DNA of 64,000 nt from Dactylonectria macrodidyma. Taxonomy: Eukaryota > Ascomycota > Sordariomycetes > Hypocreales > Nectriaceae. The DNA lies in contig JAGMUV010000001.1 in the NCBI GenBank assembly GCA_020744425.1, forward strand, positions 2,976,001-3,040,000, written 5' to 3'. This document shows positions 13,741 to 64,000 of this stretch, in pieces (within the stretch, counting starts at the first letter, position 1; each line of letters opens with the position of its first letter). Both the position numbers and the translations under genes were made by a program. Under the pieces are notes generated by a model. The model did no database searches and had not been told where the DNA came from. It was given only the letters and a program-made list of their open reading frames with translations.

Positions 13741-15528
13741 ATGGCCGGTGGAGTTAAGAAACCGGTGAATATCTTCAAGCTGAAGGACTTAGGCGAGCCC
13801 GAAGGCGCTTTCAACTGGCGTCTGTGGTTCTCCGTCATCTCATTCTCCCTACTCGGTGCCGCGAGAGGCATCGACGAGGGTCTCATCTCTGGTGCCTTCA
13901 ACTCTACCGACTTCAAGGACACCATCCACTATGATTCTTATTCAACCGTCGAGCAGGCTAACGTCAAGGCCAATGTATCCGCCATGGTGCAGATCGGATC
14001 TGTTGGCGGCGCTTTCTTGTAAGCCTTCCACTGGCTTGTGTGTAAGGTACTTTTATGATGTTAACCACATACAGTGCCTTCTTGATTTGCGACCGAATCG
14101 GACGTATCTGGGCCACCCGGTTCTTGTGCATTATCTGGGCCGCTGGCATCGCAGTCTTTATCGTTGGCGGTGTAAATGGCAACTTGGGTGCCATATATGC
14201 TGGGCGATTCATTGCTGGCCTTGGTGTAGGACAAACTCCTGTCGTGGGGTATGTTGCAGAAGCGTCGAAAGAAAGGTTCTAATATCTAACTCTGGGGTAG
14301 CCCTGTGTACATCGCCGAGATTGCTCCCGCCTCCATCCGCGGTCTTTGCACCTGCTTCTTCACTGGGGCCGTCTATCTCGGTATCGTTCTCGCATACTTC
14401 ACCAACTACGGCTGTGCAGTCAACCTCGGCGAGCACACCCACAACCGATGGCTGGTCCCTACTAGCTTGCATATCATGATGGCGGGAATCATCTTTATCC
14501 TAAGCTTCTTCCAATACGAGTCGCCTCGCTTCCTGGTCAAGCAGGGCAAGCCCGACCAGGCCGCCCAAATGATGGCCTGCATTAGGAAGCAGCCTGTCGA
14601 TGGCGAGTATGTCGTTGGCGAGATCACTATTATTCAGGCTGCTCTCGACCACGAGCTGGAGGCTACTAAGGGAGTCGGGTTGCTAGGGAAGCTCAAGGAG
14701 ATGTTCTTTGTGCCTAGCAACCTATACCGCCTATACCTAGCCAGTATGGTTCAGTTCCTTTCCCAGTGGTCTGGTGCGGGCTCTATTACCCTCTATGCCC
14801 CTGACTTATTTAGTCTCCTCGGTATTACTGGCACTAATGAGTCGCTTCTCGTTACTGCAGTCTTTGGTATCATTAAGCTCGTTGGTGCGCTAATCTGTGC
14901 CCTCTTCCTTGTCGATGTTATCGGTCGCAAGCGGGCTCTTCTTATCGGTATCACTCTGCAGACTACCTCTATGATCTATATTGCCTCTTACCTTACCGCT
15001 ATTCCCCAACTTGGTGTTGAGGAGGACTTCGTCCTGCCAAACTCTGAACGGGGTGCTAGCCGAGGTGCTATTGCTATGATCTATCTCTCTGGGTTCGGCT
15101 GGGCGCTCGGCTGGAACTCGATGCAGTATCTGCTCACCGCTGAGCTGTTCCCTCTGCGAATCCGTGCGCTAGCAACCTCGTGGGTTATGACTCTACACTT
15201 CGCCAACCAGTACGGTAACTCTCGAGCCGTACCCAACATGTTGCTATCCGTGTCCAACGGTGGAATCTCTCCCAAGGGCACCTTCTGGTGCTTCGCCGCG
15301 GTCACCTTTATTGGTGGGTTGTGGGTATGGTTCTCTGTGCCTGAGACGAGCGGCCGCAGTCTCGAGAGCATGGACCATTTGTTCGACTTGCCCTGGTACA
15401 AGATTGGTCTGCATGGGAACAAGGACGCCGAGCAGAAGGATCTGGCTAGGGATGAGAAGCAAGCCATAGCAGCGGAGCACCATGGCATGGTTGTTGAAGT
15501 GGAGGATAGGCGGAAGCTGGATGCTTGA
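13741..15528 (+). CDS. MFS sugar transporter (three exons)
   Basis: Predicted plasma-membrane hexose or related sugar transporter of the major facilitator superfamily, 559 residues, normal length for fungal members. Exons are 13741-14018, 14075-14248 and 14301-15528. Introns of 56 and 52 bp start GTAAGC and GTATGT and end CAG and TAG, the second with CTAAC before its acceptor; both restore the frame exactly. Signatures in order: DRIGR after TM2, AEIAPASIRG, YESPRFL in the central loop, IGRKR, the AELFPLRIRA region of TM10 and VPETSGRSLESMDHLF at the C-terminal cytoplasmic side. The start MAGGVKK is chosen because it precedes the conserved N-terminus; an upstream in-frame GTG at 13663 is not needed. 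Substrate cannot be told from sequence. The gene looks intact and un-RIPed. Confidence 0.93.
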
Positions 15529-16788: not shown

Positions 16789-17350
16789 TAATATAATAAT
16801 ATTGCGAGGGGCCCATATTGCCAATATACATATTGTTTATCTTATTAGCAACACTGCATCAAAATAAGCGGATCGCCAATTCAATGTGGTGTCATAAGGA
16901 TCAGCGGAAGACTTATCCTCAGCTATGTCGAATGGCTATTGATATCCTCTCGATCGCGCCTGAGTCAGTTGATCCAGAATCTGCTTTCTCGGGCGGTCGA
17001 CGTACTCTCTCTTCGGATAGAGAAGGAATGACTTGCGAGAACATTGAGAAGGTTGAATGTATCGGTAACAGGCTGCGTGAAAGGCATATCCAGAAGACTG
17101 TAAATGGTGGAATGGGCATAATTACCGATACGGGTTTGATAGTGGTGGCGATGAAGACTCAGATAGTAATTTTGATTGATCTGCGGATGTCTACGGGTGG
17201 TTATAGGTAGATTAATTCGTGATATCATTCGTGCTAAAGTGCTATAGTGATATCAATCGTGCTAATGTCCTAGAGCGATATTCGAGCATACTTTGTGTGA
17301 TATGTGAATATGAATATGAATATCACGTTAGCACGTGATATCATAATACG
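16789..17350 (+). pseudogene. C-terminal end of a hAT transposase with subterminal repeats
   Basis: The frame 16818-17210 ends with a hAT dimerisation domain: YPQLCRMAIDILSIAPES then VDPESAFSGGRRTLSSDRE and VECIGNRLRERHIQ (about residues 34-95). The catalytic core and N-terminus are missing. Downstream, 17220-17345 has repeated GTGATATCAATCGTGCTAA-like words in both orientations, as expected for subterminal transposase-binding repeats. No clear terminal inverted repeats or 8-bp duplication could be matched, so the fragment is truncated. It abuts the kinase fragment at about 16780. The composition is normal, so it escaped RIP. Confidence 0.82.
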
Positions 17351-34677: not shown

Positions 34678-35064
34678 CTATGCTATCCAACAGTAATATA
34701 CTGCAGCCAACAACGCACCAAGCGCTGGCCCAACCCAGTAGATCCAGTGATACCTAGGGAAGCTCGTGCCAGCAACAGCACAGCCAAAACTCCGCGCGGG
34801 GTTAAGAGAGCCACTAGTAACAAATACCCCTATTCAAATATAGTATGAGTTTTCTGCGAGACAGGTTCCTTGGTCAAATCAATGTGACTATACTTACCTG
34901 GGATTAAGGCCACAAATAAAGCAAGTCCGATACCGATAGAAGCGAGAAAAGTGTCTCGAGATTTCTCAGCAGCCAGCATCAAAACAACAAAGACCAGCTG
35001 GGCCGTGAAGAACATCTCCAGGAATACGCCACGGGCAATGGAAGTGTCACGTCCGAGTAAGAAG
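34678..35064 (-). pseudogene. 3' half of an aquaporin (MIP family) gene
   Basis: Membrane channel for water or small solutes. The exon 35064-34898 reads LLGRDTSIARGVFLEMFFTA and QLVFVVLMLAAEKS...FLASIGIGLALFVALIPG. A 68-bp intron (GTAAGT...TAG, 34897-34830) follows. The last exon reads [15 protein letters not shown], containing the second NPA box (NPARSFG), then [20 protein letters not shown] and a stop at 34680-34678. That is transmembrane segments 4-6 of the usual six. The first NPA box and segments 1-3 are missing: upstream of a splice-acceptor-like TAATAG at 35065 the sequence is AT-rich transposon-type DNA. The surviving part has no stop or frameshift. It is either a truncated pseudogene or a gene whose first exon was displaced. 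Confidence 0.88.
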
Positions 35065-35099
35065 CTATTATAATTAATAATATTTCTGTAAAGGTTATA

Positions 35100-35715
35100 G
35101 CAGTGGAAGGTATGGTAGGAGAGGAAGGTTATTGGCGGAACTTGGCGATTGTAGGTCAAGGGATTGACCAATTAGAAAAAAGAATTCAAGATTTAAAAAG
35201 AGCAGAAAAATACAATTAGAAAGGTAGTTAGTTTTGATATGATTAGTTAAGAAATGCATATATTGATGATCATAATCTTTTTAAACTGGCTAAAGAAAAG
35301 CCCTAGCTTTATAGAGAGATTGCTATCTAGTTATATATCTAATCTAGCAGGGGATTTAGACAATTTGTTATAATAAAACCGGTATATATGTATTATAAGT
35401 TTTATAACTATTAGATGTATGTCTAATACTTGAACTCTAATCTTATTAAAAGTTCTTATTATAAATATCTTTTATAAGTATAGTATAAGAAAGATAGGCT
35501 TTTAAAGGCATATTATATACTATTATAAAGCTAAAAATTCAGAGATTCTGAATATAATATTTATATTTTTATTAAATAAAACCTAAAGGAGATATTTCTT
35601 TTTAGTTTTATATTTTATATATAAGGGCTTTATAATTTCTAAAGTAGATTATTAATTTAAAATATTATCTTTTTTATTTATAATTTCTATTATTAATTAA
35701 ATATATCTAAAGATA
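35100..35715 (+). pseudogene. RIP-decayed coding remnant, unrecognised
   Basis: A single plus-strand frame is readable from about 35109: VEGMVGEEGYWRNLAIVGQG, then IDQLEKRIQDLKRAEKYN, and on with TAG/TAA interruptions for about 200 codons up to a MITE. The density of stops rises steadily to the right. I do not recognise the family; a transposon protein is likely from the context. Confidence 0.4.
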
Positions 35716-42394: not shown

Positions 42395-42612
42395 TTAGTC
42401 CTGGAAGAACTTGACAATCTGCTGCAAGTCGCGCAGACCAATACTATGCTTTGGATAGCAAATGTAGACTTCTTCACCGAGAGCACCAAACTTGGACCGG
42501 AAGGTAGCCTTACGTCGCAAGCCCAGGCTGTCGACGATGGATCGGTAAGTGGCGGCGAGGAAGCGCGCGCGCACGCCGCTAACGTGCTCGCCGGGAGTCA
42601 ATCTCTCGGAGA
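42395..42612 (-). pseudogene. erdS: erdS-like gene, 3' part (C-terminus of DUF2156 domain)
   Basis: Seventy codons from 42604 to the TAA at 42397-42395 read RLTPGEHVSGVRARFLAATY, then RSIVDSLGLRRKATFRSKFG and EEVYICYPKHSIGLRDLQQI, ending KFFQD. This is the C-terminal end of a DUF2156 (MprF-like aminoacyl-tRNA transferase) domain. It lacks its own start; the in-frame ATG at 42625 lies inside transposon DNA. It is the missing end of the gene at 61066-63276: both halves carry the 8-bp copy of CTCGGAGA (here 42605-42612), and joining them gives ...GAGVSE + RLTP... in one frame. Confidence 0.9.
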
Positions 42613-42785
42613 CAGAGTCAGACATCTATCGAATCTATCGAATGTGACTCCCGAAGATTCGAATTTAATTGAATGCACTTCCCGTAGATTCGAATTTAAT
42701 CGAATCCGAATCCTATAGATTTGAGTCGAATCGAATGCACCTCCCGCTGACTCGAATCGAATCGAATGCACTTCCTGCAGACTTG

Positions 42786-42994
42786 TGTTAGATTGGATCA
42801 TATATAAAGCACCTGATCGGGCGGTTATGTAATGATCTCCAGGGTTAAGACTGCCTATTAGTACAGATACTTCAAGCCCCTACTTTTAGTAGTAATTAGA
42901 ATATATATACAGTCATAGCTAAGAGACCTCCTAAATATATATAGATAATATATATATAATTAAGTTATTTAAGTATTATATAAGCTTTCTAATA
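42786..42994 (+). repeat. 5' LTR of the copia element
   Basis: 209 bp, less mutated than the 3' LTR; differences are mostly C-T or G-A. Confidence 0.88.
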
Positions 42995-45900
42995 ATTAAG
43001 AGTCTTATATATTATATTACTATTCTATTAAATACTTAACTAAGTATAGATTATATATAAGTACTTATAGAACACTTACTAAAAATAATAATAACTAATT
43101 TAACTACTAGGCTTATTATAAAAGATAATTAGATTATTTAGTTTAAAATACTTAAGATAAAGGCTAAAAGAGAGGACCTTTAGAACTTCTTTAACCCTAT
43201 AAAGATTAATAAGCTAGAGCTTATACTTATAGTACTAACTCTCCTAAATATTAAGAAGTTCTATAAGAAATATACATTAAGTAATCGTAGAATGCTTACT
43301 AATACTCTATTAACCTTTACCTAAAGTGCTAATATAATTATAGCCTAAATAGATAATAATAACCTAACCTTTTAAAAAGGGGATAATATAACTATCTAAG
43401 CCTAAGATATTAATAAACTAATAGAGAAAGGTCTTTAAATATATAATACACTATATACTAACTATAAGTACTATAATAAGCTATACTTATAAACAGTTAA
43501 GAAGATAAAGACTATTAAAGACTAGATTATAAATATAATTAATAAAACCTATTCTTAGTATTATTACTTAGATAAGAAGTCCTTTACTAAGTAGATTTAA
43601 TCATTCTATAATAAGTTCTTTTTTACTAAAGATAAATATAAGTAAAAGGCTTATTAAGTATATTATAAAATATTAGCTAAACTGTACTTAAATAAGATTA
43701 TAATTTATTAAGTAATTAGTAATTAGCTTATATATTAGAAGAATGCTATTAATAAAGCCTAGGATATTAAGCTTTAAGAGGTAATAGAGCCTAATTAATA
43801 GCTTAATAACTTAACTAGCACTTTATAATCTATATTAATAGAGTTATAAATTAATGCTTATAATATAACCCAGACTCTCTAGGTTAGAGCTAGTACTCTT
43901 ACTATTAGGCTAGTTATAGTAGATATTTATAGAGCGATTAGTAACTAGCTAGAGTCTTTAAAGAAGGCAAGAATTATATTAGGCGCCTTTTATAGTAGAA
44001 GTAGCTAAAAAGAATAAGACAAAGGTTATTTAGAAAACACTTAGTAAAGAGGCAGAGGTAAGAAGCATTTCTATTAGAGTATTAAAGATAATAAGGAATC
44101 TAAGTACTTAGTGTATTACCTCTTCTATTTACTTATATGATATTACTATGCCTTTTTAAAGAGGATGCTATAAGGATTTCTACTTATTAAGTATATTACT
44201 AACTATATTAAGCAGTGGATTGAAAGGAATAAAGATAACTTAGCTAATTGGATTAGAAAGATTAAATTAAAAGGGTCTGTATAATTTAAATTAGTAAGGT
44301 CTTATAATATGAATACTGCTCTAATAGCTAGTAAATACTATTTACTATAAGATTCTGTCTTCCTAGACTTAAGAATAATACTAGATATCTTCTATAATAT
44401 AATAAGAATAAAGAACCTATAACCAGCTCTTTTAAAAGACTTCTTTTAATTAAGTATATAGTAAGTATTAATTAATAAATATAATAAAAGAACTATTACT
44501 CTAATAGCTACTAATAGTTTACTAAAGAAGCTTATAATCTCTAATATTATACTATATATAGCTCTTATTACTAACCTTATATTCTTTTTAAAATTAAAAA
44601 AGTAAGGCATTTAATAAGATATAAGACTAAGAAATAATTATTTTAAAAGATTAAATAGAACCTTCTTTAGAGCTATTAATAAGTAAGAAGGATAGTAAGT
44701 CTTTAAAAAGAAGGAGAGCTAACTAATTATATTAAATACTTAATAAGCACTTATTAATAGCTTAGTAGTACTCTTCTCTAATTAACCTTAGAAGAGATAA
44801 AAGCATATATTATAAACTTATAAATAACTTCTCTAAAGAGATACTATTATATAGTACTAATAGTTAGGTTATCTAAGCTCTAATGCTCTTAGGTATTTAA
44901 TAAGCGCTTTAAGAGGCGTTAGACTGAAGATAGAAGAGCCTAAGGGACTATAAAGGATTATAACTATTAACTATAATACCTATAGTATAGTAAAGGCTTA
45001 TTAAATAATTAAATAGGCTCTATAAGAAGTAATAGCTAGAGTAAGGCCAAGTGACTATATTGCTTTTAATTTCTATTTAATAACTTAAGGCTATACTAAT
45101 TATATATTAGTCTGGATCTTTATAAATAGAGCTACTAGTTATTTATAGGACTATTATATAGATAATTAGTTAATACTTATACTATACTTAGCGATTACTT
45201 ATTTTTTTAAAATACTAAAGGTCTAATACTCTATTAAAGTTAAAGTAATTAAATATAATAATAAGATTATAAATATATACTTATAGGTTATAAAATTACT
45301 AAGGGATTGTAGAATACTTACTAAGCCTTTAGCATTTAATACTTAAGTATAAAATAGAAGCATAGAATAAGTAGTTACTATTATTATTTAAAAGAGCTAT
45401 ATAATATGCACTAGAGCTAAGCTACTTAAATACTTATAGCCAGAGTTAATAAAAGCAGCTACTTACTTATATAATTATATACTATTAATATATAGAAACC
45501 AGAAGACCCTATATAAGCTATTTTATAGCTAATTTTAGCTAGAAGAGACTGCAAAGCCTGATCTTTTATACTTCTAAATATATAACTATAAAGTCTTCGC
45601 CCTTATAGCTAATGCATAACTATAAAGGAACTGGTTATAAAGGCAGTTACTAAGAGTCTGGATTGGCTTCTTAGTTAGTTATATATTTAGTAATTCTTTT
45701 AAAGTATAGAATTCATTATAAAAAGAGGTCTTTATTACTTAGAATATTATCTTTAATAAATAATAACTATTTAATAAGTACTTAAAGAGCCTTTAGAACA
45801 ATTTATTAAAAGAAGACATTAAGGCTATTTAAAAGCGAATCTAAGAGCTACTATTAATATAAGAATATATAAAATAATAAGTATTATAACTATTAAATAA

Positions 45901-48107
45901 TAAAGTAAATAAGATTTAAAATAAGTTAGGAAATAGTTACTTTATTAAATACTTAATAAATAATTAAAAATAAGAAGAACTTAGAAAAATATTAGAAGGG
46001 TATATAATAGCTAAGTTTAAATTACTTCTTACTCTTCTATAATTACTACTTACTATATTCTTCTATACTTTAGCTACTAGTCTTAATATAAAGAAGTATA
46101 AAGAAGGAGAAGTAAATAATAAGATTAGTTATAAAAAGGTTAATAAATAGTTAGTAAGATAAAAGATCTCCTTTAAAGCAGTATTCTTAACTAAAAGACT
46201 CTAATTATTAAAATACTACATGAATAACTGCTAAGCGGTCTATAGTAGCCTAGCCAGCTCTATTAGATCATTTAATAAAAGAAGTATCACTCGCCCTTAG
46301 ATCAAACTAAGTATAGGAAAGTAAGAAGCCTAGTAGAATAAGACGAGCTTTATAGTTATTATAGAAAAGCAAGAAGCCTAGTAAGATAGAATAAGCTCTA
46401 TACTTAGGGAGGAAAGGCAGCTTATTATTAGTATATATTAGTAATTATTAAAGCCACTTCCTAGCTTATATATAAAGAGATTAAATTATCTGTATTAAGA
46501 TATAATACTTATAGTTAAGAAGGTATATTTATAGAATTATATAGAGTTATAATTATAAATTAAAGTTACTAAGTCTATAGTAAAAGATTACTAAGTACTT
46601 AGCTATTATTAAGTTTATATTTATAAGCTTAATAAGTATAAGAGATTCCTAAAGATTAAAGCATGCTTTATAATGCATAGTAACTAGTAAGCAATCAATA
46701 GCTAAGAGACCTATATAATAACTCTAATAAGTATATCATTTAAGACCCTTATAGCCCTAACTAACTGTTTTAACTATAATATATTATAATATAATATAGT
46801 TAATACCTTTATATATATAAAGCTTAATAAAGAGATTTATATAGAAATGCTTAGAGGATATTAAAAGCTAGGAATGATCCTAAAGCTATAAAAAGCCCTC
46901 TATAGTCTTAGATAATTGCCTCTTTTATAGTAAAAGCACTTTAAAAAGGGTTTACTACTAGCAGGCTTTTACTAAGTACTAGGTAAGGACTATTACTAGC
47001 TTTATAAGGATATTATCTTCTTCTTCTATATGAATAATTATATCCTCTGCTTTCTAAAGTAAGTCAAACCCTAAGTAATATTACTAATAGAAGACTTATA
47101 GAAGACCTATTATCTAGAAGGAGGCAAGCTTCTGTAGTAATTCCTAGGGATCGAAGTAATCTAAGACTATAAAAACTGTCGCCTATAGTTCTTATAGTCC
47201 TCCTATATTAATAAGATATGCTAACTGCTTGCTGATTATATACTAAGACTACGAACGATGACTCTTATAATATAGGAAGAACTATTACTCTATAAAGAGA
47301 TCGCTAGCTCTAGAAGCGTCAATCTTTATTAATATAAAGTCAGAATGATTATATATATAGCTATAATGACCTAACTGAATGTAGTATTTATAGTAAGCTG
47401 GCTAGCTAGGTTTAATCAGAACCTAGGGCTATAGTACTATTAAGCGGCCAATTAAGCCTTATAATACTTTATTAAAACATACAGTCTTTCCCTTAAATAT
47501 AATACGATCTCTAAATATAAAGAAGATAGCTTATAAGTAGTTTTTAATATAAGTTTTATAAATAACTTAATAGACTATTAGAGCTTATAAGCCTTTATTA
47601 TAAAGCTATTTAAAGGGGTTATATTATAAAGAGTAAATAAGCAGGATATAGTTATAATATTAATAACTAAAGCCAAGCTACTTACTTTATCCTAGGCTAC
47701 TAAAAAAGCCCTCTTTATAAATAGACTTATTTTAATATTAAAAATTAATTTATCTTTACTAACTGCTTACTAAGTGACTGCCTTACCTTTAAGAGTTACT
47801 ATTAAGTGTAATAATAAATAGACTATCTGACTAATTATAGTAAAGCTTATATAGTTATAAATAAAGTTATAATATATTAATATTTATAATTATTAGCTTA
47901 AGTAAGAGATATTAGAAGAAAAGATTAAAGTAATCTACACTCTGTTAATATAATTACTTACTAATAGCTTAATGAAGAGCTTACTAAAAGAGGCATTTAC
48001 TAAATTCACTTAGTAGTTTAAACTAATAGATCTCTTTAATTAATTAGAATAACTAAAGAAAGATAAAAAGCATAGCTTAATAGTAATACTCTTAAGCTAA
48101 AGGGGCA

Positions 48108-48316
48108 TATTAAATTAGATTATATATAAAGTACTTAATTAAGCAGTTATATAGTAATCTTTAGAGTTAAGACTGCCTATTAGTATAAATACTTTAGGCC
48201 CTTACTTTTAATAGTAATTAGAACATATATATAGTTACGGCCAGGAGACCTCCTAGATATATACAGATAATACACACACAATTAAGTCATCTAAGTGCTA
48301 TACAAGCTTTTTAATA
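48108..48316 (+). repeat. 3' LTR of the copia element
   Basis: 209 bp, directly after the purine tract and followed by the ACTTG duplication. Confidence 0.88.
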
Positions 48317-48599
48317 ACTTGAATCGAATCAAATGCATTTCTTATAGATTCAATATATATTAAATGCTAAGATTTAATTGGATTTAATTTAAATTTAATT
48401 AAATATATAATAAATCCTATAAAAATAGAAAATGTTAGATACTATAAGATATTATATAATATTATATAACTTTAAGAAAGATATAGTAAAACTAAGTTAA
48501 TTAAGTAAGTAATAAAAGAAAGCTATTAAGTAGATTATATATTACTTATATCCTTTAATAATATAAGTATATTAACTTATTAGCTATTACTAAGGCTAA

Positions 48600-51500
48600 G
48601 TAATAGTAGTAAAGGTATATAGATTCTAGCTTTATTTTATAATTAAATATACTAAGCTATTATTACTATTTCTTTCTTTAGCTAGCTTCTTAATAATACT
48701 ATTATATATCTTATATTATTAAACGTCCTTTTACTCTTTATAGATAATAATAGAATAATAAGCATATTAATAGCTATTTAAAATAGTTATAAGTACTAAT
48801 TAATATTAACTTTCTACTAATTAATTAATCTACTCTTATAATAGTAACTATAGATAATATCCTCTATATAGTACTATATATATTCATTATTAGCTATTAT
48901 TACTATAGTTATTTATTTTATCTTATAAGCACTTTTATAAGGATTAGATAATATAAAAGTTTAGCTTAATATTAAACTAACTATACTCCTAGAAAGCCTT
49001 CTCTTAATATAATCTATTAATGCTTTATTAATTATAGTAAGGACTTTATAATTAATATCGCATTCTTTATACATCTCTTAGATCTCTAATAACTTCTCTT
49101 TATGATTAGATCACTAGCTCCTAGCCTTAGGGGAAGGCACTTAAGACTATAGTTAATTAAGAAAGCATTACTTCTTTACTAAATTAAAGATAATAGTACT
49201 TATATAAGTAGCACTAGTTAGATAACTATAGTACTTAGATAGCTTTATTTACCTAAGCGTAATAAAGATCTTAAGTAATTTTTAAGTTTTATTATTAAGC
49301 TTATTATAAATAGAAACTTTAATATCCTTCTTCTCCTTACTTACTAGGTCCTTAACTTCTTTAAAGATTATACTCTTAATAGTACTTTTAAAGTAATTAA
49401 GTAGGATCTTAAAAATAAGGAAGTACTTATTAAAATTACTATAAGTCGACTTAGTACTAAGAATACTACTATTCTAAAGTTACTTAGTAATGACTTTAAA
49501 AGGCTTTAGAAGCTTAATAAGTATCTTAATAACCTTCTAGTTATATGCACTTAGTTAGTATTCTAGAACTGCTAGCCTTATCTTCTTATAAGCACTCTCA
49601 GTCTTTTAATAGTTTTAAACGTTATTAAAGAAAGTACTAAGTGCTAAGTAAAGAAGAAAAGCCCTCTTTATTATATATATATCCAAGTCCTATTAAGTAG
49701 CGTTATTAAAGACCTAGTAGAGTATAGATTCCTTACTAAACTCCTTTTATTAAAACTAAAGAAACTGCTTATATAATTATAGATTTATTTATAGCTAGAT
49801 CCTAATATTATAGAGCATTCTTAAAGCACTATACTGATTATACTCCTTAAAAGTAGTACTATTAATCTTATCTAGAGCTAGGTAAGATAATATAAAGTCC
49901 TTATAAGGGTTATTAATAATATTATCTTATATATCTTTATTTATATTATCTTCTATCTTCTTATCCAGGGCCTTATTAATAGCTTAATTAACTTATTCTT
50001 TATTACTATCTTAATTATTACTATTAGCTACTATAATTACTATGAAGTTCTCCTGCTTTAAGCTACAAAGCATAGTATACATATAGAGGTTAAAGATATA
50101 CACTATATAGTAAATCCATTACTCTTTAGAAGAAAAGCTATATTTAAATATAAAATCATTAATATAAGTATTATTATTAGTAGTATTATTAAGTATAAAG
50201 TACCTAACCCTATTAAGGTCATTAATTTACTAGAATATAAGCATATTAGTTACTTTATTAGTAAGTAATATACTTATATATTACTTATAGAGAGGTTAAA
50301 GTCTAAGGAGGATTCAGTACTAAATGAAGTTATAATTAATAAACTAAGCATTAATTCTAAAGAATAAGATATAAGATTTTAATATCTAGCTATTAAAAGA
50401 GAAATAGATTTAAAATTAAATACTGCGTAATACTTTAATTACTAGCCTAATAGTACTTATATACTTAGATTTAAATATATAAAGAAGTATCTTTATAAAG
50501 GGAATAAGGGCCTTATTAAAGAGCGGGTTATTATAAAGTAAGACCTATTAGAATTGCTTAGTATTAATAGTCTTAAATAGTAAGTTATAGTATATAATTT
50601 AGTTAAAGAGGAATAATTAAAGGTCTTTAATATAGAATTTTTTATATAATTTACTAAGAAGAAACTGATTATTAGGATTATTAAAGTTAGTACTAAGGAA
50701 GTAGTTAATAGCCTAGTTATATAATAATATGCCTCCCCCACTATAGTGCATAGCTTTATTCAGAGCCTTTTAAATTAGTATAGTATTAAGCCCTAGGCTA
50801 AGGGACTTACTATAATTCTATGGGTTTTATAAAGGTATTTCTTAATAAACACTCTTATTAAGTAGATAAAGTAGAAATCTGACTTCTTCTTAAACCCTTA
50901 GGTAAAGCAGTCTATATAAATCTATTTTAATTTATTAACCTATTAATAAGTAGAATAGTCCTTAATATAGTACTCATATTACTATTACTATGCTCTTATA
51001 TCTTAACTACTTATATAGCGCTTAAATCCTAGCTATTTTGCCTATTTTTAATAGTTTTAGAATATCTAATTAATTTTAATAAAGTCTATAACAGTCTTAT
51101 AAGGATAGAGAGATAGAGTTATTAGTAATAATGCTATTAGTAAAGATAAAAACTTAATAAGTTCTATTACTCTTAGCTAATTTAAAGGGTATAGGCTTAA
51201 TAAGAATATTTTAAAAGATATTATATTATAGTTTAGCTTATTAAGTATTATAAATAAATCAGTCTTATAAGTCCTCTAAGCTAAATAGGGCTATTAGAAG
51301 CTATTAAGGCTATAAACAGGCTTAAGTTATACCTATCTATAGTAAGATATATAAGTAATACTTAATAGTATATATATATTATATATATTAATATAAAATT
51401 CATAAAGTAGTCTAATATTATTAAACTTATTAAGTCTTATATATAAGAATAAATAAAGTTACAAGTAAGTAATATAAATAAAGATTTTAATTAGTGTATC

Positions 51501-51900
51501 TTAATATAAAGGAGTGGAGCATAAGGATACTAGAGTTAGGAAACTACTAACCTTCCTTTTAATAATTAGTATAAGAGAACTCTTTTAAGTATTAGTCTAC
51601 TAAGCCTCTTAGTACTATATAACTAGCTAATTTATAAATCCTGGGTCTATAACTAAGCTTTTTAGCTATTAGGTCTTAATTCTTCTTTATTCTTCTTAAC
51701 TTAAAGACCCCTATTAGCCAATATTATATTACTATATATAGAATATAAGAATGTATTACTTTAATTTAAACTAATCCTTATTAGTACTAACTTTGCATTT
51801 ATTCTTATTCTATTCTACTAATAAGGATTGATTTTTTTAAGCTCTTTATAAACTGGCATATATAAGGCAAAATAGTAAGGACTTAGTGAATAAGTATAAG
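48600..51900 (-). pseudogene. hAT transposase, RIP-mutated
   Basis: On the minus strand a protein reads through frequent TAA/TAG. The N-terminal part near 51730-51560 reads GVFKLRRIKKN...KLSYRPRIYKLASYIVLRGL. The middle part (50050-49400) has ...AYNQKVIKILIKLLKPFKVI... like the hAT region before the dimerisation domain. The C-terminal part near 48850-48640 reads QLFQIAINMLIILLLS then RTFNNIRYIIVLLR, the mutated form of the hAT dimerisation signature. Length about 1,000 codons. It is presumably the transposase of the element that split the erdS-like gene. Confidence 0.75.
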
Positions 51901-52351
51901 AAGACTATACATTCTATATTCTTTAAAGGAAATTCTAAGTTAGAAGTATTTACTTAATTATATATTAATTAATATAAAGAGAGGCTCTTAATAAGAGAAA
52001 TCTAGAAATACTTTTTTTTTATTTTTTTTTATAAAAATATATATTCTTTTAATCCTATTAAAATATTAATATATATTTAAAATAACTAATTTTAAATATA
52101 GTAATACTAGGCTTATAATTACTAGCTTACTTTATACTATATTATTAAGAGAGTATTACTAGCCTTATTTAATTTATAATAAAAGTATTAGTATTTTCTA
52201 ACTTTATAAATTAGATTTTATAGTTAAAATAACTTATTCTTTAATATCTTTTATATAATATATATTCTTTATAAATATTAATTAAATGCCTTATTTAAAG
52301 CTATAAATTAAATTACTATTAAAATTTTATCTAGTATTTAATTATAAATTA

Positions 52352-52734
52352 TATAACGGTCGGGCTTACACTAAGGCTCTAGAGTAAGTCTAAGGCGTGT
52401 AGTGTTTATAATTAAGTAGATTAGGAATGTTATAGTAAGTAATATAGGTCACAGTCTAGTAATAGTAGAATAGTAGATTTAATATAACTAAGTGTATTAA
52501 TAGCTAGTAAGGCTATTTTTATAAAAGTGCTAAATGAATGTGCTTATATACTAAGGTAATCCTAATAGATTATAGTTTAGGATTATAATCCATTTCTTAG
52601 GATTATAATTAAAGATTGTAATTTATTATTAGGATTATAGTTAAGGATCGTAATTTAATAGGATTAGTTAGAAATTAGTAAAGTAAGTATGTTTTAATTA
52701 GTATTATATAGTCTATATAGACTGGGCTATAATA
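52352..52734 (-). repeat. 3' LTR of the chromovirus
   Basis: 383 bp, aligned end to end with 60213-60595. Contains direct repeats of AGGATTATAGTTAAGGATCG-type words. Confidence 0.9.
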
Positions 52735-55700
52735 CGATATCTCCCCTCTATTAGTCTTATCTTTAAGACTATATAAATAGGCCTTATATAATTTCTAATA
52801 TTAGTCTATAACTTCCTTCTATAAATATTCATAAATATACTAATATAATACTATAATATATAATAAAGTAAAAGGTAAAGAAAGTAATTAAAAAAATAAA
52901 AAAGATAACTAAGTATAAATCTCTTTAAAATTTTACTAAGCTTAATAACTATATTATTAATATACCTTATACTTATTATTTTAAGCATAAGATTAAGTAT
53001 TAGATAAAGGATATTAGTCATTTTAATTATTATAAGGAATATATTTATTATAGTTAGTCTTATAATAGTATCTATATAGTATCTTTATATAAAGTATTCC
53101 TTCCTTCTTTAGTAAGTTTATACTAATATTTCTTTAATAAACAGGCTAATTAATTAATAGAAAAAGCTTACATAAGAGGAGGAGGAAGCCAGTAATTAAA
53201 TCATACTTATCTATAACCAGCTAGCTAAACTGTAAGCATCTTTAGTAATAGTAGTGAACTGTTTGGCTTAAATTAGGAAGATTAAGAAGAAAGTAAAGGA
53301 ATAGGGTTCTGATTTATTTAAATAGGGGATGTAAGAATTAGATAAGGAGGACGGAGTCCTTCTTATATTAGAGGCTTATAAGAAATAGGTAGTTTATAAC
53401 CTAAGGTCATTAGGTATTCTAGATGAGACTAATTAGTCTACTTTTAGTCTTAAGGGCGATTTTAGTAATATTAGGTCTTTAATTAAACCTAGTGTTATTA
53501 GTGAAAGTTCTTTAGTAAGTACTGTATATAAGTAAGGTTTTTAGTAGGTTCTTATTAATTACTGCTTTTAGAGTAATTCTTCTATTTAATAAGGTATTTA
53601 GTCTTATTATTTCTAATTCATATATTATAGATCTTTTTAACTTTATATTCTTCTAATCCTTTAACTTTAGTCTTATATTTATTATTATATTTAGTGTAAA
53701 TTATATTTTTCATAGTTTTAAAGAGTGAGATATAGAAGACTAAGTAAAGTCTGACTTTTAATAATAAGTCTAACTAGTAGTTATTTTCTAAGATTCTTTT
53801 AATGATTTTATAGGGTCTGATATATTTATAGTCTAGTTTTTTATTTTCTTATTTTATTTTAATGTTTTTTATAGCAAAGTATACTATATCTTCCTCTTAG
53901 AAGGATAGTCTCTTTATCTATTTTTTATTATAGTATTTTTTTATCTAGTTTCTAATAAATTCAAGTTTAGTCTTTATTTCTTTATATAGATTTTTTAATT
54001 TTTCTAATATAAAGATAGCTTTAAAAATAATTAATCTATTATAACTTACTTTATAAGTATTAGAAATAAATCTAAAATTAGTATATACTAGAGTGAGTTT
54101 TATGCTTTTATAAATAATTATATTATAGCTTAACTATATAATTAATAGCTTCTTAACCTAATCGTTTTATTTATAATTAATATAGTATTAAAAATATTAT
54201 TTTAGTATTTAGTTTATTTATTCTATCTAATTATTAGTCTATAGTTAGAAAGCTATAAAGAGTTAGTAGTTTAATTCTAAATAGTCTATTAGTACTTACT
54301 AAAACTTAAAAATAAATAGGGGTTTTCTATTAAAAAGAATTTCTAAAGATAGCCTATAAGTACTAATAATATTTCTTAAGAAGATATAAGCAAACTGCTC
54401 TATATCTGTTAATTCTTAATAAAGTATAAAATAAGAAAATTTCATAAGTCTATTTATAATAATAAGAATACTATTATAAAGAGTTCTAATTATAAGATCC
54501 TCTAATAAGAGTAGTTTCATAATAAAATCTATTATAATAGAGTCCTATAGTCAGTTTATAATTAGTAAGGATTATAATTCTCTATATAGTTTATAGTATT
54601 ATACCTTAGTCTTTATATAAAAGTTATATTATTAAATAATGATTTAAATTACTACTTTTATCCTAAGGAATTTATAAGTCATTCTAACTCTATTAAGGGT
54701 TTTATTAACTCCTTAGTATCTATATAATAAGTATTTATAGATTTCTTATATAAGTTTATATTATAATTCTTTAAGAACTTATTACTTCTTTATTTATTTA
54801 TCTTTAGATAGTATATTATTATACTCTTAGATTTATCTAAGTAGTGGATTTCCTTATTCTACTAAGTGTTATATTATAGTAATCATTCTAAAGATATATA
54901 ACTAATCCTTAGAGCATTTAGAGCATTATACTATTAAATCCTTTATAGTTGTATATATATTTTCTATTATATAGAATTCCTTTATTTATATAATAGCTTA
55001 AGTAGATATCCTATTATATGCCTAATTATAATAGTATTATATAAGGTAATTCTTTATATTATCTAGTATAATAATTCTACTATTTTTACTTTATTTAATA
55101 TACCTCTTCTAAGAGTAGCTATTAGTAACTTAGTTAAATTAGTAATTATTTAGTTCTTTTAGCTTCTTTAAGTATTCTACTAATAGTTACTTTAATAAGT
55201 AATACTTTAAGCATTCTTTAATTATATTATAAAGCGCTTTATTAAGTCTATAGGTTTAGTATATTTTTATAATATATTATTATAATATATTAATATTTTT
55301 ATTATATAGTCCTTTTATATATAAGTCTTATACTATTTAGTATTAGAAGCTATTAAGGATAATAATAAGTCTATCCTTATATATAACTTTCTTAATATAA
55401 CCTTAGGCCTAGTCTATCTAATAAAATACTAGTCTATTATTCTAGATTAGTTCTAAGTATTCTAGTTATAAAGGTATTATTCCCTTTTAAGCTTTTATAA
55501 CGAATTTCTATTTTAAGTATCCTTTAAGTATAAAGTATAAGAGTTATTTATTAACTATTCTTTTATTATTATTAAAGTCATATTATTAACTAATAGTATT
55601 AGCTCTTCTATTTTCTAAGCCTTTATAATAAATAATAGTATAATTAAATTCTAAAAGGTATTTAGCATATTATAATTATTATTTACTAAGTTCTTAAGTA

Positions 55701-58700
55701 ATAATAAAGTATAAGATATTCTTATAGTCTATATAGACCTTAATCTTATATTTACTTTTTAAAAAGTAATATTAGAATTCCTTAAAAGTATTAATAATTA
55801 TAAGGAATTCTTTATTATAAATAGGGTAGTTAAGTTCTATATTATGCATTTTATAAGAGAAGAAGGCAATAGGGTATAATACTCTATTATTATCTTATTA
55901 TCTAATTTAAGCGCTTTATATAAAGTCTGAAGAGTCTATTTTTAATTCGATTTCTTATTTAAGATTAAAAGTTACTAGAATAGGTTTGCTTAATATAATC
56001 TCTTTAATTTTATTAAATACATTTTCTATAATAATATCCTATTTAAATTCTACTCCTTTTTATATAAGGTTAGTAAGTAGTATAGTATATTTACTAAACC
56101 CTTTAATAAATTTTTAATAGTAATTAGTAAATCTAAAGAAGGCTTATACTTTTATAATATTTATTAGTTTTAACTATTTACTAATAATAGTAATTTTCTT
56201 TAGATCTATTTTAATCTTATTATAAAAGATTATATATCTAAGAAATTCTACTTTTAAAGTATAGAAATGACTTTTCTTTAATTTAACTAATAACCTATAG
56301 TCTTATAATACTTATAGTACTTTATAAATATATTTAATATATTCTTCTTTTATTTTAAAAAAGATAAGAATATTATTTAAATAGTATATAATAAATATAT
56401 TAAAGTACTTATATAATATATTATTAATTATTTATTAAAATATAGTTAGTATATTTATAAGTATAAAAGGCATAATAAGGTATTTATATACTTTAAACTT
56501 CATTCTAAAAGCAGTTTTCTATTTATATCCTTCTTTAATATAGATAAGGCTATATGCATTTTTAAGATCTAGTATTATAAAGAACTTCATTCTATAGAGT
56601 CAGTCCTTAAGCTTTATAATAAGTAATAATAAGGTTCGATCTTTTAGTATAATATTATTTAAATAGTAGTAATTCATAATAAGTCAGAATTTATTATTCT
56701 TTTTAAGAATGAATATAACTAAATAGCTAACTAAGGACTTTAATATTCTAATATATCCTTTATATAGTATATTTTTAATATATTCTTTAAGTATTTATAA
56801 TTATATTTTATTAAGATTAAAAATCTTATAGAATGTAAATAATGCTTTATCTTTTAATATAATTTTATAGTTCTATTAACTGAATTCTAATAATCCTATC
56901 TTAAGTTCTTTTATAAAGAGTTTTTTATAAATATAGTATTATACTAATATATTCTTAAGCCTATTATCTTTAGGATTTTCTTATTATTCTTTTTTCTATT
57001 TCTTAAGGTCTTTATTTATTTTTTTAAACTATTATTAAAAGCATTTAATCGTTTTTTAAAGTATGTTTTTCTTGCCTTTCTAATACTTATATCATATTTC
57101 TATTAAGAGTAATAAGGTATCTATCATTTCCTTATATAAAGTCTTATTCTTACTATCTTTAAGAATTAAGATTAGAGATTCTCTTTCTTCTAAGTTACTT
57201 TTATTATTACTAGAGAGTATATTATTATTATTAACTAGTACCTGGCTAGTTCTTTAGTTAATATATAGATTATATTTTCTTAACTATAGATACTTAAGTA
57301 TAATATTATAATACTTTATTAAGATAATATTAAAAGTAATACTTTAGTTCTTTTTATTAATAAAAACCTTTAAGTAATTAAGTTCTTTAGTAATTTATCT
57401 ATCTTTATAATTAAATATATTATCTTTAAGATTATATAATATATAAGCTTCCTTCTTATACTTTTATAATAGTTTTAGCTTATTAACCACCTTTAGGTTA
57501 ATATAGTCTGCTTTAGCTTTACTATTTACTAATATAGTAAGTTATATACTATTAATTCACACTTTTAGCTCAAGTGTCTTTCATTTTATTACTATTTATA
57601 CTATATATAGAGCTTTTAATAGAGGTAATTTTCCTTTTATATTATCACTTATTTATCGCTTTTTTATAAATAGTATTTATTATTTTTTACTAGTAATACT
57701 TATATTTACTTAGTATAGTTAGTTATTAAGTCTTTTTATTTATCTTATTATATATACTATAAGTTAATCTTAACTTAAATATAAATTAAATAGTCTTTTT
57801 TATTATATTATATTAGGTTTATTAGTCCTTTAATATATTTTAAAAGGAAAAACTTATTAGAATATTCTAGGATTATAATCTTATTAATAGGTTTAAAACT
57901 CTTTATTTAATAGCCTTTAATTTTATTATAAAGGTATAGTATAAATACTAAGTAATCTTCTAATTATATAAGAAAGTAATTATTCTTTTACTTACTATAA
58001 ATATACTTTTTATAATATAGGTTATAGTATAAGATCTATATAAGTTTATAATATTAAAAGTTATTTATTCTAATATAAGGGTTATCTAAGAATTCTTCTT
58101 AGAGTATTTTCTTATTACTTTATACTTTAAGCCTTAATTAAGTATAGATATAGAGATCCTCTTTAGCTTAAGGTTCTTATCTTTCTTTAACTATTTACTA
58201 GTATCGATCTTCATTACTTATCTATATATAGATTCCTTATAGATCGATTTCTACTATATTCTACTATTCCTTTACTTTTATTAAAGACTCCTTATACTCC
58301 TTATAGTAAGGGTCTGTTCATTTATTATCACTACTATCTAGGTATTCATTCATAAGTATGAGGATAAGCTCTAGTTTCTAACTGAGTTATTCATCCAGGA
58401 TGCAATAAGCTTCTAAGTACTATCTGCCTTTAGCTATTCTACTTCGTAAGAGTTTATAGTACTTATTAGTACTAGTATTTTATCATTTGCTACCTTACTT
58501 AGGTTTCTTATTATTATAGAGTTTATTCTAAATCTATTTGCCTTTCTTAGAAAATACTACTAAGCACTCATTCTTTATATAACCAGTTTATTAATAGTTA
58601 TAATTATTGTTTATTTATATAGCTTGGGTCTTAAGTAGCTAGAAGGTTGCGCTAAGTGCGTTTCCTAATTAACTATAATTTACCTTAACTTAGCTTAGCT

Positions 58701-60212
58701 ATCTATTAAGGATTTCTTCTTTAACCTTCTCTTAATAGGATTCGCTATCTTTTAGGATAGGTATAAATTATATGCATTTATCGCCTTTCTTAACTATAGT
58801 AAGAGTTTTTCTATTTACAGTTTTTATTATAAGTCGGCCTTCCGGGATGGGGTCCTATTATTTATTAGCTTCTCTAGCTGCCTTGCGTTCAGTATATTAT
58901 CTTTAGGCGCTTTCATTTTTATAGTCTAGGCGCCCTTGTTTTTCTACTATTATTTCTTTTACTAATTATTATGCCTATTTGCCTTAGTAAGCTTCCCTTC
59001 TAGCTTCTATTTTATCTTATTATTCATTTATCTTAGGTTTGGATTCAGAGTTAATTATATTTTCTTTAGCTTTACTAAATATATTATAATAGCTGCTTCT
59101 AATTATAGTAAGGGTCTTAAATAAGTACTAGTAGTTAATAGATCAGAGGTTCTTACCTTCTAATATAAGCTTATGCTTTTAGTTTATCTTAAGGCTCTAG
59201 TACTTATTCTTAAAGTACTCTATTTTACTATAATTCTAGTATTTAACCTTAGAATAGTCCTATTAAACTGCTTTAAGTTCTATAAGTCTAGCTTAAATTC
59301 TATAAAAAGTATTAACCTAGTTTTTATCTTTCTGATTATCTTAGTTCTTAGGGTAATACAGATTATAATTACTTTTTTAGCCTCTTTATTAGTTCTTAGC
59401 CTTCTCTCTTTATCTTTTATACTATTATTCGTCAATCTTAATAGCTATAGTAATATACTTAATAAGTATATTAAGTTAATTAGCTTTATATAGTTTATTT
59501 TTAACTTTTTCTTTAAGTCTTTAATAAAAGATTTTTATAAGTATATTATTATCTTATTCTAATTTAGAAGTAACTTATTAGAATATAATAGTATAAGTAA
59601 TAGTAAATTGGATTTATTTAATCTTATAGATCTTAGTTATTACTTACCTTTCCTTATTAACTATACTAAAGGTATTTTTAATTACTTTTTTAAAATTCTC
59701 TTAGTCTATAAATATATTAATAGTATTTTAGTCCTAGCTAGCCTTATTATTATTTAAAAAGTCCTTTATAATTAGTTTAAACCAGTCTTTAGTATTCTTA
59801 ATTATTAAGTTATTTATAAATAATAAGCATACTTTAAATAATATAAGATATTATAAGAAGAATTAGAAGTACCCCTTTATCCTAATAATAAATAGAATTA
59901 TATCACTTAGTGAACTATTAAATAGTTCAGGCTTTAGTAGCTTAATCATTTCTCTTAAGTCATAGTCATTATTCGTAGTTATAGTAAGTACTATAGCCAG
60001 TTAATTCTACACTTATTACTATAGAATTTAAATAAGGGCGTAAAGTTACTAGACCTCTATTACTATTTCAGTATTACTTAGTAAGGATATATATACTAAT
60101 AGTATAGGCGCATTACTTAAGATAATAAGAATTCAGTTTATTCTAAATATACTAATAGTATAAAGTATTACTTAGGTTAATATAATAATATACTAAATAA
60201 GAGCTATTAATA

Positions 60213-60595
60213 TATAATAGTTAGGCTTATACTAAGGCTCTAGAATAGGTCTAAGGCATATAGTATTTATAATTAAGCAGATTAGAAACATTATAATAAG
60301 TAATATAAGTCACGGTCTAATAATAGTAGAATAGTAGATTTAATATAACTAAGTGTATTAATAGCTAGTAAGGCTATCTCTATAAAAGTGCTAAATAAAT
60401 ATACTTATATATTAAGGTAATCCTAATAGATTATAGTTTAGGATTATGATCTATTTCTTATGATTATAGTTAAGGATCGTGATCTATTATTAGGATTATA
60501 GTTAAGGATCGTAATCTAATAGAATTAGTTAGAAATTAGTAGAGTAAGTATGTTTTAATTAGCATTACGTAGTCTGTGCAGACCGGGCCGTAACA
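60213..60595 (-). repeat. 5' LTR of the chromovirus
   Basis: 383 bp. Retains the outer end GGGCCGTAACA; its R-U5 half also matches the LTR at 11914. Confidence 0.9.
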
Positions 60596-61065
60596 AATTA
60601 TTATTAAAATAATAAGTAACTATAAAGTACTTAATTTATTATAAATCTCTTTAAATATCTTTTTATATTTACTAATATATTTTAATAATAATATATAACT
60701 ATAGTTAATAAAGTATATTAAGCTTAGTTATATAAAATTATATTATTAGCTTTTTAATATATTTATTAAAATTATATAAAAAATTAATTCTTAGTAGATT
60801 TTAATTAATTATAATACTTATTTAATTAAATTAATTAATATTTAATTAAACCCTTAGCTTCATTTAATTCAATAGCTAATTGAATAAGCTTATATTCGAT
60901 TTAATATGAATCGAACGGGTTAGTAGTAGGTTCGTATCGAATCGAATGAGCTTGTGGAAGATTCGTATCGAATCGAATGTCTTAGCGTTCGATTCGATAT
61001 TCGTAAGACTTGGCGTCGAATGAATCTATCGATTCGACTACCCATTCGATAGATGTCCATCCCTG

Positions 61066-63276
61066 CTCGGAGACGCCAGCGCCAAAGGTGACCTGGCCGG
61101 TGACAGTAGACAATGCGTGGCCAATGAAGGCCTCGATGGCGCCGTTGACAGCACCAGGGAAGTCCAGAGCCCACTTGACCTGCCAGCCATGGCGGGGGGC
61201 GAGCTTAGCCAGCACCACTAGTGAGAGGACCTTGCCGTCCTTCTCAGCTGCGAAGTAGCGGCGATGCTCCTGGTCGACCCAGGGGCGCACCTCAGTCAGG
61301 TGGACTTGCTTGCCCTTACGGGCAGCCTTCCACTCCTCGATGGCAGGGTCGGCGCGGCGAATGAGGTCCTCGTTGGCCTTGACCTCGTGAATCTTGACAC
61401 CTTCGCGCTCAACACGGCGTGCCTTGGCGGTAAGACCGCTAACCTGCAAGGCATTGTGCTTGTCGGCGTCGACGCGCTGCTCCTCAGTGCACGACAAGCT
61501 CCGCCAGCAGAGTTCGGATTCAAGAATCTTCTGGACCTCGTAGGAGACGAGCATCCACACAGGAGTCAATCGCAGGTCAACAGTGATGTGCTTGACAAAG
61601 GTGTGAATGACCTCTGTATACTGGCTGCGGTCGCACAGAGGATCGCCAGTAATCAAGGCGAACTTCTCCTGCTGGACCCAGCCAAGAGCAGCACCAGTCT
61701 CGTGTCGCCAAATCTGGAAGCGGTCATCGAGCCATGATGTGCTGGAGGCGTCACCGTAGTTGGCGATAAGCTTCTCGAGAGCGGGCGGGTGATCGTGGGA
61801 CTGGGGCTTGGTAGTGTCGGCCTCGGGATGGGGTAGGCCGGCGGCCCTGGTCGGGAGAGACTTGGGATCACGATGGAAGAGGGAGGCGTAGCGCACATCG
61901 CCAAGCTCAAGCATCCAGGCGACGATACGCTCAAGACCAAGACCAGCGCCAGCATGGGGGGGAGCGCCGAGCTCAAAGGCCGTCAGATAATCTTCCATGC
62001 CGTCGTCCGACATGCCGGCGGCAGTCATATTGGCCCGGAGTTCCTCTATATTGTGGATACGCTGACCACCGGAGCAAATCTCCTGGCCGCGAACGAAGAT
62101 GTCGAAGGATCGAGTATACTTGGGGTCTTTGGAATCATTGGCAGTATAGAAGGGACGGGCGCTGGCGGGGAATCTGTCGAGGACGTAGTAATTGGTGCCG
62201 AACTTTTCGCGGACAAGTTGGCCGAAGCGGATCTCGTCGGGAGTAGACAGATCCTCCTCCTCGCCGTCGTGGCCATCGTCGCGGAGCATCTGGATACCCT
62301 CGCTGAAGGTGATGATAGGTGTCTCATCCAACCACTTGAACTCACCGCTTAGCCATCAATTGCAGATAACCTCAATCTCTCGAGAGGAGTAGACGGCCTT
62401 AAAGACCTCCTTAAGGAAGATATCGATAAGCTAAATAACCTCGTGGTAATCAGTATCGATAGCCATCTTGAGGTCCAGGCCTATGTATTCAGTCAAGTGG
62501 CGATGAGTGTTGGAGTTCTCGGCACGGAAGACCTGGCCGACCTCAAAGACACGGCCAAAGTCGGCGGAGACGGACATTTGCTTGGCGAGTTGAGGGCTCT
62601 GAGCAAGGAAGGCCCGGCAGCCGAAGTAGTTAACGGGGAAGACAGCAGCGCCGCTCTCGGTGGCAACGGGCTGAAGCTTAGGAGTGTGAATCTCGACGAA
62701 GCCATGCTTCTCGAGGGTGTTTCGGAATGCGTGCGAGACGAGGGAGCGCACGCGGAAGAGAGCCTGATTGGAAGGGTGTCGGAGATCGAGGATGCGCGAG
62801 GACATGCGGTTGCGCAGTGTCTCAGGAGGCTTGTAATTGCTGAAGGGCAGGTTCTGCACGGGGTTGACGAGGTGAACGGAGCAGATGTCGACCTCTACGC
62901 CAGAGTGTGTCGCCGATCGGATGGGCTCTAGAGGCTGCTTCAAGACACCGCATACTTGCACCAGCGACTCGAGGCTGATCTTGCGCACCCACTTCACGAA
63001 GTCGGCATTATCGGCATCGCGAGCGAGGACACCCGATACGGAGTGAGTCTAATCACGGAGGAGGAGAAAATCGAGAACCTTGGAGAGCGGTCGCTGAGTC
63101 TCAATGCGCGCTCGGAAGGTAACTTTTGTGCCGATAGGGAGAGAATCAAGCTGAGAAATTGTCTTGATCTCGCCAGGATGCACAGGCCAGTCGACGCTCG
63201 TGCTGGTGCGACCACTCTCAAGAGAAGTGCGGCTGCTGCCGCTTGCAGCGTCTCTGGTGGTTAAGGTGCCGTCCAT
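61066..63276 (-). pseudogene. erdS: erdS-like gene, 5' part: AspRS fused to DUF2156 transferase
   Basis: ErdS proteins charge tRNA-Asp and transfer the aspartate to ergosterol. One minus-strand frame from ATG 63276 shows the anticodon-binding OB-fold (about residues 40-130), class II AspRS motif 2 (FRAENSNTHRHLTEYIGLDL), motif 3 (GAGLGLERIV) and RDPKSLP, then DUF2156 (ALITGDPLCDRSQYTEVI..., RHGWQVKWALDFPG) up to GAGVSE at 61066. The frame is cut by the hAT element; the last 70 codons are at 42604-42395, giving 806 codons in all. It is further broken by TAG at 63051-63049 (RD*THSV), TAG at 62433-62431 (HEVI*LID) and TGA at 62358-62356 (N*WLSG). Each fits one C-to-T change from CAG, CAG and CGA (or CAA with more), consistent with RIP leaking from the repeats. 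Non-functional as it stands. Confidence 0.9.
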
Positions 63277-63323
63277 GCTGGACCTGGCGAGTGGCTGTGG
63301 GACTCGACGCCGCTGTCGCGCAT
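63261..63323 (-). other. Possible upstream ORF overlapping the erdS-like start codon
   Basis: ATG at 63323-63321 opens 20 codons (MRDSGVESHSHSPGPAWTAP) ending at TAA 63263-63261, 47 nt upstream of and out of frame with the main ATG at 63276, which it overlaps. Such an arrangement usually lowers main-frame translation. Whether it lies in the transcript is unknown. Confidence 0.4.
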
Positions 63324-64000
63324 ATTATTGCGGATAATTTGCGCTGTGGTTGCTGTGCGTCTTGTTGGTGAGTTGTTATGTGGTCATGTTGCTGTTTTGG
63401 AAATAGTCGTGGTCGCGATGGAGTTTTTGGTAATACATCCAATGCTCAGCTGGCCTCGGGAGCGGGCGTGCCTAGTGTGGTCCAGTCGAAGGCGCCGGAC
63501 GAGAGAGAAGCAAATGCTGAAAGAGAAGCAGCCAAGGCAACTGAAGTGGGAGACGAGGTCTCGACGGTCGTGGTGCCTTTAACTCGATGCTTGGGTCCCA
63601 ACAGGATGCAAAAAGGCTGAGGCGATGGGAGACGGATTGTCCGTCATAGTGGTCATAGCTGGTTTCGGTGGATGTGGCACTGTGGGTCTGTGAGAACGAT
63701 CCACGCTTGGTACCTTGGATACTTGGGTCAAAGCAATTTTAGGTACCTTGGCGTTGACGATCGGGTGGCGCTGCTTTCGGTTGCTTTCGGACCTTTTGGG
63801 GCTGGGTAAAACTGGCGCCGGTCAGAGGATCAGGGCTGGGGGAGTGTCAGGTTGATGTACTTGCTCGATCGCGGCTGTGGTGTCTGGGGAATAACTTCCA
63901 AGAGTCCAGTACGCCTGTCGTTACGCAGGTAAAGTGCTTGGCTGGCCAAAGATCAAGGCAGGGAAGTACGGAGTAGGTTCAGTTGCTTCTTGTCCGCTCC
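63324..64000. promoter_or_regulatory. Upstream region of the erdS-like gene
   Basis: Balanced composition. Short frames on both strands (63328-63620 and 63442-63218) overlap each other and match nothing I know. No TATA box stands out and no second gene is visible before the window ends. Confidence 0.4.

Follow-up and report, generated by a model that had tools for sequence, protein, structure and literature searches.

Does a transposon that cuts through an ErdS-type gene of Dactylonectria macrodidyma deprive this fungus of sterol aspartylation, and where did the interrupted gene come from? ErdS is ergosteryl-3beta-O-L-aspartate synthase, an AspRS fused to a DUF2156 / LPG_synthase_C domain; its function is taken here from PMC9437257 and PMC10449517. 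According to a review (PMC9437257), roles suggested for such lipid aminoacylation lie in membrane remodelling, trafficking, antimicrobial resistance or pathogenicity. The locus lies in a window of 64,000 nucleotides (bases 2,976,001-3,040,000 of contig C1, 7,196,004 bases) of the 77.3-Mb genome, which comprises 77 contigs. An earlier note on this DNA had read two minus-strand fragments as the halves of one ErdS gene, parted by a nested hAT insertion, and had proposed that this datable event abolished the pathway.

The two fragments (Table 1) are pieces of one AspRS-DUF2156 gene. When the right piece was scanned as two separate stretches, Pfam placed tRNA-synt_2 in both and LPG_synthase_C after it, the domain pair and order of an ErdS-type protein, as the note had proposed. 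The 69-residue left piece alone has no Pfam match; it is in register with the C-terminus of the family, and 60-65 of its 69 residues are common to the 14 best of 121 proteins. We also looked for homologues in which the C-terminal residues do not follow the GAGVSE at the end of the right piece. The alignment over the break is gap-free in 120 of 120 homologues among the matches listed, with exactly 69 residues after the junction in 119 of them, and a second D. macrodidyma copy, on contig C5, agrees with this order of the two pieces. A strict motif pattern for the junction had matched only 33 of the 121 proteins because it allowed too few residues, and was replaced by the alignment.

Table 1. Features of the split ErdS-type locus (window coordinates)
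Feature	Position	Strand	Description
Left piece	42395..42604	-	Open frame; encodes last 69 residues of ErdS-type protein and stop
Target duplication CTCGGAGA, left copy	42605..42612		8 bp
hAT left end	42613..42785		First 171 bp of insert (42613-42783) 95.3% / 94.2% identical to hAT copies L045 / L046
Nested element 1, LTR-type	42786..48316		Direct repeats of ~209 bp, 80% alike; 5-bp duplication ACTTG (one copy 42781-42785)
hAT body, degenerate	48317..52351	-	69.6% identical to L045 (3592 aligned columns); transposase of relatives on this strand
Nested element 2, Ty3/Gypsy-type LTR retrotransposon, degenerate	52352..60595	-	LTRs 89% alike; 5-bp duplication AATTA
hAT right end	60596..61065		60658-61065 77% identical to L045; 60838-61069 88.8% identical to L046
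Target duplication CTCGGAGA, right copy	61066..61073		8 bp; doubles as end of right coding piece
Right piece	61066..63276	-	737 codons, 3 in-frame stops; tRNA-synt_2 and LPG_synthase_C domains
N-terminal extension remnants	63277..63637	-	Changed reading frames; tblastn with F. falciforme and F. euwallaceae N-termini

The insert between the gene pieces (42613-61065) measures 18,453 bp, and its ends, CAGAG... and ...CCCTG, are directly adjoined by the two copies of the 8-bp duplication that the note had recorded. The CAGRG motif is a mark of hAT ends. Short terminal inverted repeats of this type, together with an 8-bp duplication, characterize the present copy and two others in the genome: L045 on contig C4 (5,230 bp, duplication GATGAATG) and L046 on contig C33 (4,766 bp, duplication CCCGAATC). 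An open 744-codon transposase frame with a Dimer_Tnp_hAT match (E 9.7e-24) is found at L046:477-2711; in the hAT body of the window, neither this nor any other Pfam domain matches the three minus-strand frames (48322-52346). Subtracting both nested elements and their duplications leaves, by arithmetic, a hAT element of about 4.67 kb. Nested element 1 contains no Pfam domain in six frames at E 0.01. The hAT-type ends and the nesting thus stand as first described, and we regard the split and its nested hAT as real, though of an ordinary kind. Elsewhere in the window, the plus strand has another fragment of a hAT dimerisation domain at 16800-17207 (E 4e-10), and an open frame of 669 codons lying to the left of the window (L052:413-2419, minus strand) looks by eye like a Mutator/FAR1-type transposase.

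The note had further held that deleting the insert and one 8-bp copy restores a continuous frame of 807 codons. This does not hold, and the transposon is not the only lesion. The right piece has stops at codon 76 (window 63049-63051), codon 282 (62431-62433) and codon 307 (62356-62358); the alignment columns of codons 76 and 307 hold one residue each in 23 of 23 aligned relatives, and that of codon 282 is variable. Upstream, an N-terminal extension has left remnants in two other frames, which makes it probable that translation did not originally start at the ATG at 63276. These remnants emerged from a tblastn search with 19 N-termini at E 0.01, of which 15 match, most of them along a stretch of just ~31 residues that takes in the start of the right piece. 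The far stretch, up to 63637, is matched by four N-termini, those of F. falciforme (summed E 1e-20), F. euwallaceae (2e-18), Fusarium sp. AF-6 (2e-18) and F. zealandicum (3e-13). For three short F. oxysporum proteins the match reaches 63323-63332, and for Neonectria it covers only the last part of the remnants; at this threshold, nothing was matched by the N-termini of the C5 copy, Cylindrodendrum, P0004 or P0006.

Decay is also visible in the amino acid sequence. The split copy is changed at 27 of 425 columns that are invariant in all 23 relatives; when the relatives were left out in turn, 0-11 such columns were changed, with P0021 highest (11/436), followed by P0022 and P0023 (9/434 each). 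Fourteen of the 27 changes are compatible with C-to-T or G-to-A, 12 are not, and one needs several steps. With its stops, upstream frame changes and insertion, the split copy has no intact frame and is a pseudogene.

The same locus (window 60985-63276) underlies a public protein record, EDB81DRAFT_896862 (P0123, 719 aa). Compared with the DNA, this model skips stretches of 30 and 105 nt, which removes all three stops, and it closes with 27 residues that come from translation of the hAT end. Were it right, the stops would be spliced out and the product would be a shorter protein whose tail the transposon encodes. That the record exists, and that both skipped stretches start with GT and finish with AG, speaks for such a product. 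Against it, one of these stretches is only 30 nt long, two of the three stop positions fall in the columns with a single residue in all relatives, and the product would lack stretches that are conserved in AspRS, along with the last 69 residues. We consider the chance that the model is correct close to negligible, and the record unfit for use as an ErdS or AspRS sequence.

Whether the pathway was lost depends on the rest of the genome, in which the note had advised a search for a second erdS copy. A DNA search that used a 701-base part of the right piece as query gave two places, the piece itself and C5:1220428-1221108 at 74%; no third copy appeared in this search. The C5 locus has an unbroken ErdS frame of 930 codons from the first ATG, with both domains, and corresponds at 100% to protein EDB81DRAFT_844527. 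It is changed at only one of 426 columns invariant in the other 22 relatives. Three solved structures named 'Aspartate--tRNA ligase, cytoplasmic' (9w9e, 9w9f and 9w9g), compared with the C5 copy alone and by sequence alone, align with residues 167-936 of its translation (E 4.8e-241 to 3e-233); because of the length of the match, we infer that they are ErdS proteins.

That the transposon abolished sterol aspartylation in D. macrodidyma is therefore very improbable. The insertion by itself would remove the last 69 residues of the split copy, as that claim supposes. The split copy, however, has three further stops and is a Fusarium-type second copy, and the well-conserved frame on C5 leaves the loss of the pathway unsupported. 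The native C5 gene presumably still makes ergosteryl-aspartate. The claim of pathway loss is thus corrected, in that D. macrodidyma keeps an unbroken erdS, and the presence of a Fusarium-type second erdS is a more interesting point than the split itself.

We next consider whether the event can be dated. The composite RIP index is 1.16 for the insert; the right piece has -0.67, the left piece (210 nt only) 0.08 and the C5 gene -0.58; the related hAT copies L045 and L046 give -0.51 and -0.56, and L046 is not RIP-like. It is the insert, not the right gene piece, that has a strongly RIP-like composition, consistent with RIP as the process behind it. The divergence of the LTRs or of the hAT body is therefore no clock, and with the stops and the insertion also unordered relative to each other, the proposed dating is not supported. 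Nor is there support for the idea that the stops arose when a recent duplicate underwent RIP, given the index of the right piece and the 12 of 27 changed invariant columns that fit neither C-to-T nor G-to-A.

To place the split copy among its relatives, we compared it with protein sequences from Fusarium and other genera. With the right piece as query, all 19 non-self matches of at least 80% identity are named Fusarium, and the C5 protein comes next at 79% (among the 120 of 4457 matches listed). Three trees were built: a quick one of 45 rows, a careful one of 30, and a careful one of 26 on the columns of the window. In all three, the split copy groups with this distant genus rather than with its own genome's copy. 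Support for the Fusarium stem is 98 in the 45-row tree, 100/98 with P0029 and 81/97 without it in the 30-row tree, and 100/99 in the 26-row tree. Joining the split copy to the C5 copy is 174 log units worse in the 30-row tree and is rejected (AU p 1.2e-36); a group of the split copy, the C5 copy, Cylindrodendrum, P0004 and Neonectria is 156 log units worse (p 2.7e-50). The tree and this test reject the view that the native gene was recently duplicated. With blastn, matches between the C5 locus and the flanks examined (38-44 kb of the window, L004 and L050) are confined to the coding part.

Within Fusarium, the rows closest to the split copy are 806-829-aa proteins of some F. oxysporum (support 92/92 in the 30-row and 80/85 in the 26-row tree). 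Short ErdS proteins of this length (P0014, P0018, P0019, P0021, P0023 and P0024) occur in some F. oxysporum and in F. falciforme, and they group apart from most long Fusarium copies. Their small clusters of one to three sequences each suggest a patchy second copy. In the best tree the split copy falls together with the short copies, although support for this union is weak (57/33).

Given the Fusarium grouping, the rejected union with the C5 copy, and an identity of 93.5% to F. euwallaceae once its own unique changes are removed (86.2% for the C5 copy treated alike), the split copy was probably an extra erdS acquired horizontally from a Fusarium solani-like lineage. The N-terminal remnants favor this reading as well, in that they match proteins of the F. 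solani complex and not the N-terminus of the C5 copy. Several observations count against it, among them the sister position discussed below, which is not rejected. Support inside Fusarium is moderate (81/97 in the 30-row and 87/83 in the 26-row tree), and the only neighbor tested for co-transfer proved native. This neighbor, about 27 kb from the split gene, is a quinate-type sugar transporter gene (MFS) on a G+C-richer island amid AT-rich repeats (window 13639-15528, plus strand); its protein is 96% identical to one encoded on another D. macrodidyma contig and 91% to one of D. estremocensis, so a transferred block, if there was one, does not clearly extend to it. Other features of the neighborhood are a fragment with a weak Major intrinsic protein (aquaporin) match, E 4e-4, below the Pfam cut-off (34830-35168, minus strand), and, about 6 kb past the 5' end of the pseudogene, a bacteriorhodopsin-like fragment (L004:9226-9711, minus strand, E 5e-6).

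The main alternative is an old paralogue. Here erdS would have duplicated in an ancestor of Nectriaceae, Fusarium would have kept copy B, and the Neonectria/Dactylonectria side would have kept copy A as its main gene, with the pseudogene as the sole surviving B on that side. Such a history agrees with trees in which the split copy is sister to all 17 Fusarium rows (p 0.105; p 0.128 without P0029, 26-row tree) or in which the long Fusarium copies form a clade without it (p 0.195), none of which is rejected. A tree that places the split copy outside the group of Fusarium and P0029 is rejected (p 0.0038), in a test that leans on the long-branched P0029. An old duplication also sits poorly with the 93.5% identity to F. 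euwallaceae set against 86.2% for the C5 copy, and it requires losses in Neonectria, Cylindrodendrum and Mariannaea, none of which has a row near the split copy among the 120 of 4457 matches listed. We consider it possible but rather unlikely. The account that we lean towards, with some reserve, is a decayed second erdS of Fusarium-like derivation, split by a nested hAT, beside an unbroken native copy on C5.

Under this preferred account, the erdS sequence would have come from a Fusarium-like lineage, most likely via horizontal transfer or introgression, and, to judge from the remnants, would once have encoded a protein with a long N-terminus. It has taken three nonsense codons and N-terminal frame changes, with no order implied relative to the hAT. 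As the end structure and related copies show, a cut-and-paste hAT entered just ahead of the part that encodes the last 69 residues, producing the 8-bp duplication; two LTR-type elements then entered the hAT, as their nesting and 5-bp duplications show. The composition of the insert, in contrast to that of the right gene piece, is RIP-like. On the broader proposal that erdS is a mobile accessory gene in Nectriaceae, with a F. solani-like copy entering some F. oxysporum and Dactylonectria beside the native copy, here decayed and transposon-split, we are evenly divided. Accessory erdS copies are not reported in the open-licence literature searched. If the transfer is true, a gene for membrane-lipid aminoacylation has been gained and lost as an accessory gene.

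Like Ty3/Gypsy LTR retrotransposons with a chromodomain, nested element 2 has, on its minus strand, a Ty3/Gypsy-type RT, RNase H, a Tf2-1 SH3 domain and a weak chromodomain match, along with LTRs and a 5-bp duplication; unlike them, it is degenerate and has no integrase match at E 0.01. The insert shares with the hAT superfamily (Dimer_Tnp_hAT, PF05699) its 8-bp duplication, its CAGAG/CAGGG ends and its relatives elsewhere in the genome, L045 and L046, but its hAT copy is degenerate, with two other elements nested inside. The split copy differs from ErdS in being cut by 18.5 kb, in its three stops and in the frame changes of its N-terminal remnants, yet it has both ErdS domains in the same order, a right piece 88% identical to Fusarium relatives, and a C-terminus that is contiguous in relatives.
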